NCBI GenBank assembly: GCA_025060015.1
Contig: JANXDB010000014.1
Span: 1-36,041 of the forward strand
DNA length: 36,041 nucleotides
Source: Caldimicrobium sp.
GTDB taxonomy: Bacteria > Desulfobacterota > Thermodesulfobacteria > Thermodesulfobacteriales > Thermodesulfobacteriaceae
Direction: 5' to 3'
Notes under the pieces: generated by a model
What the model was told of the DNA's origin: nothing
What the model saw: the letters and a program-made list of their open reading frames with translations, nothing else
Databases searched by the model: none
Part shown: positions 25,051-35,617 of the stretch, one piece after another
Position numbering within the stretch: the stretch's first letter is position 1
Layout of the letters: each line of letters begins with the position of its first letter
Made by a program: the position numbers and the translations under genes

Positions 25051-25620
25051 TTAACCGAAGATTTTCAATAGCGAAATAAAGATTGTCAAAAAAGTTAAAC
25101 CTCCTGCAATAAACCATTGCAAGAAATTTAATCTCTTTTCCAAAGATTCAAACCGAATATTGATGGCCTCAAAACGGGTATTCATTTCTCTTTGCAAAGC
25201 CTCAAAACGAGTATTCATTTCCCTTTGCAAAGCCTCAAAACGAGTATCCATTTCCTTTTGCAAAGCCTCAAAACGAGTATCCATTTCCTTTTGCAAAGCC
25301 TCAAAACGAGTATTCATCTCTCTAAGTAAGGCTTCAAAGCGGGCATTGGAATTTTCTTGCAAAGCTTCAAAGCGAGTATTCATAACCTCAAAACGATTAT
25401 TCATCTCCTTTAACAAAGTTTCAAATCTTTTCTCCTCAAATTCTCTTAACGCCTTTAATTCCTCTTCTACCTTTATGAGTCTTTCCACTAAAGAGATCTC
25501 TCTTGCCTTTTTCTCATGCTCCATTACAAACTCTGAAAACCTCTCTCTGAGTATTTCCTCAATTAGTGGTATCATCAAATTCCTAAACTCTTCTACTCTT
25601 ATACCCTCAAACTGAGGCAT
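25051..25620 (-). CDS. Tail-anchored coiled-coil repeat protein
   Basis: The 189-residue protein is a predicted coiled coil ending in one transmembrane helix (LQWFIAGGLTFLTIFISLL). Residues 65-165 are built from units RFEALQKEMDT or RFEALQREMNT of 11 residues, mixed with two 7-residue units (RFEVMNT and RFEAINI). This hendecad/heptad mix suits a long, weakly right-handed or straight coiled coil. The family is not named with confidence; it recalls DUF1640-type proteins. A strong Shine-Dalgarno (AAAGGAGGAAG) precedes the ATG. It may be a membrane-tethered spacer or scaffold, but no partner is evident. Confidence 0.8.
   Translation of the reverse strand: MPQFEGIRVEEFRNLMIPLIEEILRERFSEFVMEHEKKAREISLVERLIKVEEELKALREFEEKRFETLLKEMNNRFEVMNTRFEALQENSNARFEALLREMNTRFEALQKEMDTRFEALQKEMDTRFEALQREMNTRFEALQREMNTRFEAINIRFESLEKRLNFLQWFIAGGLTFLTIFISLLKIFG
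25166..25363. repeat. 33-bp tandem repeat within the coiled-coil gene
   Basis: Six units of 33 bp begin at 25166, 25199, 25232, 25265, 25298 and 25331 with GCCTCAAAACG or GCTTCAAAGCG; a seventh, partial unit starts at 25364. Units 3 and 4 are identical or nearly so, implying recent expansion. Each encodes one 11-residue repeat. Confidence 0.9.
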
Positions 25621-32118: not shown

Positions 32119-32637
32119 ATGAAGAACTACCACAATACAAATCATAGTTTTTCACATCTTTTCCTGATCGAGGCTGGCTCTGAGGAAGAAGCACTGTTAA
32201 TTTTAATGAATTTCGTTAATGGATACGAACTCATTCGCTACGAAGAGATAACTTTTCAGAGGAATGAGATTCTAGTGGCTTCCAAAGAAAAATTTTGGAT
32301 TGAACTTGAAAGGGCTTTGGAAGCTAATAGGAAGATTCTCTCTTCCCTTATAGATGAAATCAAAAATGAGGGTTATGTCCTGTTAGATGACCTTAAGACC
32401 TTCCCTCAGGGTTACCTCAGCAAGCTTCTCCACACCCTCGCCCATATTATTGATGGTTTTTTTGGTATCGATTCTTTTTTCTATAACCTTGTGGAAGATT
32501 CCCATTTCATCAGCCATGTTTTGTTGAGAAAAATCAGGGAGAATCCCCAGAGATATTATCTTCTTCCATGGATTGGACATATAAAAGAACCTATGAGACG
32601 CTTTGAAGTTTTAAATCCAAAAAAATTCATTAAATGA
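32119..32637 (+). CDS. Hypothetical protein
   Basis: I do not recognise this 172-residue protein. It starts with a hydrophilic segment, then a strand-like block FSHLFLIEAGSEEEALLILM that recalls small alpha/beta domains, and a helical C-terminal half containing FPQGYLSKLLHTLAHIIDGF and LPWIGHIKEPMRRFEVLNP. No membrane segment or metal motif is clear. There is no Shine-Dalgarno at the ATG. Its end is 11 bp from the TAA of the convergent thioredoxin-fold gene. Confidence 0.65.
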   Translation: MKNYHNTNHSFSHLFLIEAGSEEEALLILMNFVNGYELIRYEEITFQRNEILVASKEKFWIELERALEANRKILSSLIDEIKNEGYVLLDDLKTFPQGYLSKLLHTLAHIIDGFFGIDSFFYNLVEDSHFISHVLLRKIRENPQRYYLLPWIGHIKEPMRRFEVLNPKKFIK

Positions 32638-32648
32638 AGATCTTAATC

Positions 32649-32966
32649 TTAAATTCTAATAACTTCTCTTATTTTCTTTCTGATAACAGCCACCGAGGGA
32701 ACGGGGGTAACCCTACCACCTTCATCGACAAAGAGCCTTCAGGTAAATCCGCCTTGGGGTAATGGCTGAACTTCTTCGCCATTAATTCTGATAGTCGGAG
32801 ATCCTCTTAAATCTAGTTTACGTGCTTCCTCATCAGAAAGCCTTTGATAAGTCACCTCAGCAGTAACTCCCTCAAGTTCCAAGGCTCGAGAAATGTTATC
32901 CCTCAATTGTGTCTCACTGCTACAGCTCATATTCATATAAACTTCTATTTTTAAATCTTTATTCAT
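32649..32966 (-). CDS. Thioredoxin-fold protein with in-frame TGA, candidate selenoprotein
   Basis: The minus strand encodes 75 residues, then TGA at 32741-32739, then 29 more in-frame codons to TAA at 32651-32649. The first part has MNMSCSSETQLRDNI where thioredoxin-like relatives have their active-site segment, and LDLRGSPTIRINGEEVQPLP, the cis-proline strand of the fold. After TGA comes RLFVDEGGRVTPVPSVAVIR. In the related small thioredoxin-family proteins I recall, the motif is G-x-x-C-R-(L/V)-(Y/F), with the cysteine exactly at the TGA position. Full length would be 105 residues, normal for the family. The ATG overlaps the alaS stop (ATGAATAA). The alternative is a recent nonsense mutation of a cysteine codon. 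Confidence 0.7.
32703..32720 (-). promoter_or_regulatory. Candidate bacterial SECIS-like hairpin
   Basis: Downstream of the TGA the minus strand can fold as GG-T-GGTA, loop GGGT, TACC-C-CC: four base pairs, a T/C mismatch, then two GC pairs, with a possible weak extension. The loop begins 25 nt after the TGA and its first base is G. Bacterial SECIS elements are recalled to have the loop about 16-37 nt after UGA with a G in its first two positions. A competing GGG-TTA-CCC pairing is possible. Confidence 0.4.
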
Positions 32967-35553
32967 ATTTTGAAAGAACCTCTTCTAACTTCTTTTTTAT
33001 CAGATCTATTGATGTTGTTTTGGTGAAACTTCCTTGAGCCAGTTCAGCCTTTCCTCCACCCTTTAGTTCTAGTTCTTGTGATAGTTTTTTAAAGATCTCA
33101 CTTGCTGAAATCCTTTTTGCCAGATCTTTGGTTACCATACAGACAGCTAAGCTATCTCTCTCTCTTTCGCCGATAAGAAATAGGACGCCAGATTTGATTT
33201 TATTTTTGTAATAATCACCCCATTCCCTTAAATCCTCCATTTTGTCTGTTTGAAAAGAAGTGACTAAAAGTTTTACACCATCAACATCCTTTATATCGGT
33301 TAATCTGCTTTCTAACTCTGCCTTTATGTCTCTACTTTTGAGGGCTTTAATTTCTGTTTTTAGTCTGTTTAACTCCTCAGTTAGTTCCTTGATTTTTCTC
33401 AGGACCTCTTTAGGATTTGTCTTTAAGGTTAATGAGATTTCTTGAATTAGGTTTTCTGTGTTTAAAAGATATTGATAACTCTTTTCTCCACAAAGGGCTT
33501 CTATTCTTCTAACGCCACTTGCAACACTTGATTCAGATATTATCTTAAAAAGACCGATTTCTCCTGTAGCTTTTACATGGGTGCCTCCGCATAATTCCAT
33601 CGAAATTTTATCAATTTTTATCACTCTTACAATGTCACCATATTTTTCTTCAAAAAAAGCCAAAGCCCCAAGCTCTTCAGCTTCCTCTTTTTTGAGCCAC
33701 TTTATCTCTAGGGGATAATTTGCTAATACCCAGAGGTTAACCAGTCTTTCGATCTTTTGCAATTCTTCAAAAGAGAGAGCTTGAAAATGGGTAAAATCAA
33801 AACGAAGCCTGTTTTCCTCTACAAGGGAGCCAGCCTGTCTCACATGGGTGCCTAAGACCTTTCGCAAAGCAGCATGCAACAGATGTGTTCCGCTGTGATG
33901 CCTAGCAATATGCAGACGCCTTTCTTTGTTGACTTCTAAAGTAACCTCTTCCCCCGGAGACAATTTCCCTTCAAGAAGCCTTATTCTGTGATATATCAAA
34001 TCTCCTACCCTTTGAACATCAATAACTTCAGCCTTTCCGCTTTTACCGTGCACAAATCCAATGTCAGAAACCTGGCCTCCACCCTCAGCATAAAAGGGTG
34101 TAATATCAGTTACAAGATAATCCTCAGAGAGATAGAGGATCTTTCCCTTGCTAACCAGTTCTTCATAGCCTACGAAAAGGGTTTGAACTCCTTCTTGTAC
34201 AAGGGACTTAATTCCTTCAGGAACCTTATCTAGCACCCCTTTCCAACTCTTTCTGCTTTCAGATCTTGCCTTTTCTCTTAAGGTTTCAAAACTTGAAATA
34301 TCAAGCTCAAATCCAAGAGGCAATACATAATCTCTGACCAAATCGTAGGGAAAACCATAGGTATCATAGAGCTTAAAAATCAACTCTCCAGGAACTACTT
34401 TTTTCCCTTCGCTTTGCAGTTTTGCAACCTCTTTTTCTAAAACCTCTGTTCCGAAATTTAAGGTTTCAAGAAATCTCTCCTCTTCTATTTTTAGAACCCT
34501 ACTAATTGTGTCCTGGTTGTTAGAAACCTCAGGATAGATGGATCCATATTCATCAATCAAAGGTGGTAGAAGCTTATATAGAAAGGGGTCCTTTAAGCCT
34601 ATTTGTTTGCCAAAGCGTTCTGCTCTTCTGATTATTCTTCTTAGAACATAACCTCTTCCCTCATTGGAAGGCATAACACCCTCGGCTATCAGGAAAGCGC
34701 TAGCCCTAAGGTGATCTGCAATGACCCGAAAGGCTATCTCAGTATCATGGTTTTCTTTGAAAGATCTCCCAGATAACTCTGCTAAAAGGTTTATGATTCC
34801 TGCAAAGAGGTCGGTATCATAATTGGAGGGGACACCCTGCAAAACTGATGTGATCCTCTCTAAACCCATTCCTGTATCAATACTTGGCTTAGGAAGTGGT
34901 TTCAGATTACCATTTTCGTCTCTCTCGTATTGCATAAATACCAAATTCCATATTTCAAGATACCTATCACAATCACATCCCGGAGCACAATCTGGTCTCT
35001 TACAGGAAAATTGTTCGCCCTGGTCGTAGATTATTTCGGAACAGGGTCCGCAGGGGCCAGTTTCACCCATCGTCCAAAAGTTATCCTTCTCACCAAGCCT
35101 GACAATTCTATCTTCCGTAAAACCAGCAATTTTTTTCCAAAGGTCAATAGCCTCCTCATCCTCTCTAAAGACAGTGACCCAGAGTCTATTCTTCGGTAAG
35201 GAAAAATCCTTTGTAATCAATTCCCAGGCGAAGGCGATTGCCTCAGCTTTAAAGTAATCTCCAAAGGAGAAATTACCTAACATCTCAAAAAAGGTGTGAT
35301 GTCTAGCTGTATATCCAACATTTTCGAGGTCATTGTGTTTACCACCGGCCCTAATACACTTTTGACAGGTGACAGCTCTCTTGTAAGGTCTTGTTTCTTC
35401 ACCGAGAAAGACCCTTTTGAACTGAACCATGCCAGAGTTAGTAAAAAGTAAAGTTGGATCATTGGCTGGAATAAGGGATGAACTTGAAACCACGGTATGA
35501 TCTCTCTGAGCAAAAAATTCAATGAATTTGCTTCTGATATCTCTTCCTTTCAT
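32959..35553 (-). CDS. alaS: Alanine-tRNA ligase
   Basis: AlaRS charges tRNA-Ala and edits misacylated serine and glycine. The 864-residue protein has class II motifs (SSSLIPANDPTLLFTNSGM, RHHTFFEMLGNFSFGDYF), the insert with CKRPDCAPGCDCDR, the editing-domain HIARHHSGTHLLHAAL and ELCGGTHVKATG, and a C-terminal coiled-coil/DHHA1 domain (GGGKAELAQGS). The start MKGRDIRSKFIEFF is used because family similarity begins there and AGGTGA lies just upstream; the frame is open 17 codons further. It overlaps the thioredoxin-fold gene by eight bases. Confidence 0.97.
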   Translation of the reverse strand: MKGRDIRSKFIEFFAQRDHTVVSSSSLIPANDPTLLFTNSGMVQFKRVFLGEETRPYKRAVTCQKCIRAGGKHNDLENVGYTARHHTFFEMLGNFSFGDYFKAEAIAFAWELITKDFSLPKNRLWVTVFREDEEAIDLWKKIAGFTEDRIVRLGEKDNFWTMGETGPCGPCSEIIYDQGEQFSCKRPDCAPGCDCDRYLEIWNLVFMQYERDENGNLKPLPKPSIDTGMGLERITSVLQGVPSNYDTDLFAGIINLLAELSGRSFKENHDTEIAFRVIADHLRASAFLIAEGVMPSNEGRGYVLRRIIRRAERFGKQIGLKDPFLYKLLPPLIDEYGSIYPEVSNNQDTISRVLKIEEERFLETLNFGTEVLEKEVAKLQSEGKKVVPGELIFKLYDTYGFPYDLVRDYVLPLGFELDISSFETLREKARSESRKSWKGVLDKVPEGIKSLVQEGVQTLFVGYEELVSKGKILYLSEDYLVTDITPFYAEGGGQVSDIGFVHGKSGKAEVIDVQRVGDLIYHRIRLLEGKLSPGEEVTLEVNKERRLHIARHHSGTHLLHAALRKVLGTHVRQAGSLVEENRLRFDFTHFQALSFEELQKIERLVNLWVLANYPLEIKWLKKEEAEELGALAFFEEKYGDIVRVIKIDKISMELCGGTHVKATGEIGLFKIISESSVASGVRRIEALCGEKSYQYLLNTENLIQEISLTLKTNPKEVLRKIKELTEELNRLKTEIKALKSRDIKAELESRLTDIKDVDGVKLLVTSFQTDKMEDLREWGDYYKNKIKSGVLFLIGERERDSLAVCMVTKDLAKRISASEIFKKLSQELELKGGGKAELAQGSFTKTTSIDLIKKKLEEVLSKYE

Positions 35554-35590
35554 TCTTTCACCTGTAGCCTGGTTTACTGCTATAAATTTA

Positions 35591-35617
35591 GTTATAATTC
35601 GCAAATTTGCAACTCAA
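35591..35617 (-). promoter_or_regulatory. Possible alaS promoter
   Basis: Minus strand TTGAGT (35617-35612) and TATAAC (35596-35591) are 15 bp apart, a short spacing. The -35 box abuts the end of transposase remnant D. Confidence 0.35.

Follow-up and report, generated by a model that had tools for sequence, protein, structure and literature searches.

An in-frame TGA very probably read as selenocysteine in a gene for a small predicted thioredoxin-fold protein of Caldimicrobium sp. and its relation to the DF family

The 36,041 nt contig of Caldimicrobium sp. which was analysed as a whole (the window) contains, directly downstream of the alanyl-tRNA synthetase gene alaS, a small reading frame with a TGA codon in its second half, and the question arises whether this codon ends the protein or is read as selenocysteine (Sec). 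Starting from the ATG at position 32966 there are 75 sense codons, the TGA, 29 further sense codons and a TAA (Table 1); the 3′ end of alaS overlaps the start of the gene by 8 bp. The TAA lies 11 bp from the end (32637) of a convergent ORF for which no Pfam family was matched. These coordinates confirm the layout described in a previous sequence-only reading which had proposed that the TGA encodes Sec. In this case the predicted product is MNKDLKIEVYMNMSCSSETQLRDNISRALELEGVTAEVTYQRLSDEEARKLDLRGSPTIRINGEEVQPLPQGGFT-U-RLFVDEGGRVTPVPSVAVIRKKIREVIRI. On the contrary, if translation normally ended at the TGA, the gene would code for a 75-residue protein or would be a pseudogene in which a Cys codon (TGT/TGC) has mutated to TGA. 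The open frame and the hairpin downstream of the TGA are weak evidence alone and leave room for an ordinary stop, because an open run of 29 codons or more follows 13% of the window's TGA triplets, and an equally stable SECIS-like hairpin arose in 27% of the trials in which the synonymous codons of the window copy were randomised. It is the comparative evidence that lifts the case above chance.

Table 1. Features of the predicted selenoprotein locus (positions in the window)
Feature	Position	Strand	Remarks
Predicted selenoprotein gene	32966..32649	minus	105 codons, in-frame TGA is codon 76; homologues collinear end to end
TGA codon 76, predicted Sec residue 76, motif GGFT-U-RLF	32741..32739	minus	based on column homology and sel machinery
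TAA stop of the predicted selenoprotein gene	32651..32649	minus	
Codon of invariant Cys15	32922..32924	minus	probable redox partner of Sec76
alaS (alanyl-tRNA synthetase)	32959..35604	minus	identity recognised from sequence
Convergent 172-aa ORF	32119..32637	plus	beside the predicted selenoprotein gene in several genus members
Position of the conserved putative SECIS stem–loop	32709..32723	minus	5 bp, 5-nt loop containing GG; +16..+30 after the TGA
SECIS candidate of the window copy, GG(U)GGUA-GGGU-UACCCC	32704..32720	minus	6 bp, one bulged U, -4.5 kcal/mol

The search for the sel genes which the sequence-only reading had proposed as a check revealed the full machinery in the host genome (1.6 Mb, 99% complete): a single copy of selA (591 bits), selB covering the whole model (398 bits), selD (333 bits) and a tRNA-Sec (84 bits) which is also called by ARAGORN and has the anticodon UCA. 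TGA terminates one of the nine ordinary window genes checked and is therefore still a stop codon in this host. The presence of selA does not tell whether a homologue has TGA or Cys and was discarded as an indicator, since nearly all genomes tested carry this gene. The selD gene of the host (L037) has an in-frame TGA of its own near the start (TASG-TGA-AAK) and is probably itself a selenoprotein gene.

Within the class, homologues were matched in 17 of 41 genomes. The close homologues come from five other genus members plus a single genome belonging to a different genus within the family. All of them have the TGA, and so do the more distant relatives of the class with the exception of two sequences from one genus (L034 and L035) which have Cys. 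A second layer of homologues was obtained by searching 395 genomes of the phylum with the NCBIfam model NF049942 and with a profile built from the close homologues. With the subfamily profile the window-type sequences score 112–140 bits and the next sequence 55 bits, which delimits a subfamily of 17 sequences that come from 8 families. Every one of them has TGA in the column of residue 76, and Cys occurs in this column only in a separate Cys clade; the designation as Sec-only refers to the one phylum sampled. Thus, the proposed alignment of residue 76 yields Cys or TGA at this position, as anticipated. Around this residue the subfamily follows, at least closely, the pattern G(F/I)(S/T)-U-R-x-(F/Y)-x-DE-x-GRL-x-x-VPSV. 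The invariant columns include Cys15, Gly55, Ser56, Pro57, Gly63, residue 76 and also Arg77, Glu82, Gly84 and Pro90, and the latter four are encoded after the TGA. In one genus member (G013, L025/L036) a frameshift near codon 49, upstream of the TGA, interrupts the gene; this could be an assembly error or reflect a decayed gene and would fit a TGA that is an ordinary stop. Another genome of the genus with high completeness (G014) had no match to the gene. Considering both cases the gene seems to be dispensable.

If the TGA were a stop, random substitutions would be expected behind it. Instead, the frame is under purifying selection on both sides of the codon. When five genus members are compared, pN/pS amounts to 0.27 over 70 codons before the TGA, 0.31 over 26 codons after it and 0.40 over the last 16 codons, which are mostly beyond the hairpin. 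As synonymous sites are near saturation in this comparison, the constraint after the TGA speaks against a recent nonsense mutation.

A bacterial SECIS has a G in its loop, and the loop lies about 16–37 nt after the TGA. In the subfamily the nucleotides +16..+20 pair with +26..+30 at all five positions in 14 of 17 members, for example, GAGUC-UGGAA-GACUC, GAGCA-GGGCA-UGCUC, and GAGGC-CGGGC-GCCUC. When synonymous codons were randomised (2000 trials), 2.2 members were fully paired on average and in no trial were there more than 9, and when the stem position was slid along the sequence at most one member was fully paired. Within the alignment 78 of 85 cells are paired (91.8%), seven cells are changed on both sides, and the covariation score was reached by none of 500 shuffles. 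Judged from these sequence patterns the covarying stem–loop of the relatives is a bacterial SECIS. The window copy is an outlier as it forms just two of the five pairs. The hairpin with the loop GGGT that had been pointed out in the sequence-only reading is indeed present, with 25 nt between the TGA and the loop, but it is not the conserved stem of the relatives; its loop is located five nucleotides further downstream. Its layout is shared with the fdhF SECIS of E. coli (6 bp, one bulged U and a 4-nt loop), which has -4.2 kcal/mol compared to -4.5 kcal/mol here. The stem–loop with a G in the loop is thus conserved in the subfamily and the hairpin of the window copy fits this description as well, but in view of the randomisations it is not significant alone and was dropped as stand-alone evidence. 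We suggest that the shifted hairpin has replaced the stem of the relatives as SECIS in the window copy.

Taken together, it is very probable that the product of the gene is a selenoprotein of 105 residues, with a predicted thioredoxin fold and the TGA at codon 76 read as Sec, and we infer that Sec is actually inserted at this codon. The earlier proposal is upheld by the sel genes, the Cys/TGA column, the coding constraint and the covarying hairpin in the relatives. That the TGA is an ordinary stop, be it in a functional short gene or in a pseudogene, is very improbable, as the codon is kept across 8 families despite the near-saturated synonymous sites, and as the selection past the TGA, the covariation downstream and the Sec machinery of the host all argue against it; this explanation was rejected on the basis of the conserved TGA, the constraint and the covariation. 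Reading of the TGA as Trp or as some other standard amino acid, by near-cognate suppression or a change of the genetic code, would likewise predict a coding frame after the TGA, but we consider it still less credible, since the column holds Cys and never Trp in the homologues and an ordinary window gene terminates in TGA, on which grounds it was rejected, and since a tRNA-Sec with anticodon UCA and selection for a SECIS-like stem also speak against it.

Among named families the closest is NCBIfam NF049942, the "DF family (seleno)protein". The "hypothetical protein DF" was described in the deep-Sep study (Xiao and Zhang 2025, PMC12013277); Sec was reported in Desulfosediminicola flagellatus alone, together with Cys homologues, and other Sec-utilising bacteria had no homologue containing a TGA. 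The DF family is also listed in PMC13188914. The window protein is homologous to DF over its full length (E 2.8e-14, positions 1–95 of the 96-position model), and both share the Sec/Cys column, the N-terminal Cys, the GSPT motif, the U/C-R-x-(Y/F) motif and a downstream SECIS-like hairpin. Nevertheless, the protein scores 52.9 bits (45.3 bits in the genome scan) and the other subfamily members that were scored reach 35.9–52.3 bits, all below the curated cut-off of 70. In addition, the subfamily differs from DF in its conserved DESGRL-x-x-VPSV tail and in having Sec in all members. On the basis of the sequence comparison the window protein is best described as belonging to a Sec-only branch that lies either inside DF or next to it. 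Ordinary ORF calling would truncate the protein by 30 residues, as the sequence-only reading had expected for automatic annotation, and would thereby drop the putative catalytic residue; the NCBIfam model, which might otherwise rescue the truncated annotation, has a cut-off that the subfamily does not reach. In the literature library searched, no paper joined "DF family" and selenoprotein, and none joined selenoprotein and Caldimicrobium.

We constructed a tree of 49 sequences, 37 with Sec from 18 families and 12 with Cys, in which the subfamily is represented by 16 rows as the frameshifted copy of G013 was omitted. A single branch parts all Sec members from all Cys members (support 81/87, 82% of bootstrap trees), and this split was matched in none of 500 shuffles. 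Thus, Sec was probably gained or lost once in the sample and then kept. The window subfamily forms one side of a branch with support 100/99 and is nested among the DF members with Sec, where the support of the backbone is weak (85/71). Compared to the single Sec organism of the 2025 report, the selenoprotein family now proves to be widespread in its phylum.

The fold and the neighbouring genes of the relatives might give a hint on the function. The AlphaFold model (pLDDT 88, pTM 0.79) is thioredoxin-like with the order E-H-E-H-E...H, the reference being a beta-alpha-beta plus beta-beta-alpha topology with a cis-Pro strand, and its final helix (residues 92–103) is encoded after the TGA. In a structure search with this model the top PDB matches were mostly thioredoxins, though at modest scores (TM about 0.4–0.58, E about 1e-3), and a PDB sequence search gave just marginal glutaredoxin-like and thioredoxin matches. 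In the model Cys15 is placed directly before the first helix, at the position of the thioredoxin CxxC motif; a classical CxxC is not found, as the single Cys15 is followed by SSE and the second Cys is absent. The predicted thioredoxin-like fold is shared with Thioredoxin_3 (PF13192), which comprises the MTH895/ArsE-type proteins and the Thioredoxin-like selenoproteins Sec.1/Sec.2 and matches the window protein below threshold (E 5.6e-4). Whereas Sec.1 and Sec.2 carry CxU or UxC motifs (PMC13188914), the predicted Sec of the window protein sits 61 residues past the lone N-terminal Cys and after the GSPT (cis-Pro-like) strand. To DUF2703 (PF10865) there is a weak sub-threshold likeness (E 0.023) which is limited to residues 23–66 and ends before the Sec.

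We propose that SelB with Sec-tRNA(Sec) would bind the stem–loop just past codon 76 and decode the UGA as Sec, and that translation would proceed to the TAA and so complete the fold at its C-terminal end. Sec76, following the GSPT-x-x-x-x-G strand, would be the attacking selenol and the invariant Cys15 the resolving thiol, and in the simplest mechanism a Cys15–Sec76 selenenylsulfide would form. The protein would probably serve as a small relay in redox reactions or in the handling of metal(loid)s, similar to the family members in arsenic operons. Taken alone, we give this specific metal(loid)/redox mechanism an even chance. Two distant DF proteins, from G049 (L057) and G121 (L059), have a second in-frame TGA at the position of Cys15, with the motifs TQGUPAK and TQGUTAK, respectively. 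By their sequences these genes are probably double selenoproteins, possibly with a Sec–Sec pair. As they carry TGA at both positions, they support the pairing of Cys15 and Sec76.

Both double-TGA genes adjoin the gene of an ACR3 arsenite exporter. An ArsE-like thioredoxin gene lies nearby in G049 and a similar ORF in G121, where the DF copy also adjoins an arsenate-reductase-like (ArsC-like) gene; arsenic-operon context is thus common to these DF relatives and the ArsE-like proteins of Thioredoxin_3. Within the window subfamily one member adjoins an arsenite methyltransferase (ArsM; L068), one a MerA-like reductase (L098), and one has both a DUF2703 and a cation-efflux gene beside it (L100). 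Some DF members are near a MerR-type regulator. Fusions are found among Cys-type DF domains: two are joined in frame to an arsenate-reductase-like (ArsC) domain (L092 and L093, in G214 and G389), and two to a membrane region at the C-terminus (L065 and L069, in G368 and G351) which contains a CPACWP motif and resembles mercury-transport-type proteins. Given these DF relatives in arsenic operons and near mercury-type genes, thioredoxin-fold selenol/thiol redox chemistry or metalloid handling is the likely role of the family. For the window gene itself this role is extrapolated from the relatives, as in its genus the gene is located behind alaS and outside of any metal operon.

Two readings of the function have to be weighed. 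The first is a separate, obligately Sec-using DF subfamily that arose by one Cys-to-Sec replacement in an ancestor, never reverted in the sampled phylum, uses an unusual long-range Cys15–Sec76 redox pair for metal(loid)s and has double-Sec cousins in arsenic operons; as a whole we regard it as a tentative proposal with somewhat less than an even chance. According to the second, the protein is a selenoprotein as well but serves general thioredoxin- or glutaredoxin-like disulfide/peroxide redox, and the ars/mer context pertains to distant members only. This would agree with the genomic surroundings in the genus, where alaS and the convergent ORF coding for 172 amino acids are the only steady neighbours (the pair of alaS and the selenoprotein gene is also kept in one genome from a different genus of this family), and with the neighbour genes with a Thioredoxin_4 domain in two subfamily members (L099 and L100), which suggest general thiol redox. 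On the other hand, several relatives have ArsM or the MerA-like reductase as a neighbour or belong to an ArsE-like/ACR3 operon, and two carry the ArsC-like domain as a fusion; we rate general redox, too, as possible but not quite an even bet. The family is tied to arsenic genes and less firmly to mercury genes, and it offers small testable proteins, including those with a predicted double Sec, with which the contribution of selenium chemistry to metalloid handling could be addressed.

Elsewhere in the window, at 25051..25620 on the minus strand, a coiled-coil-like ORF contains several tandem copies of the repeat MNTRFEALQ(K/R)E.
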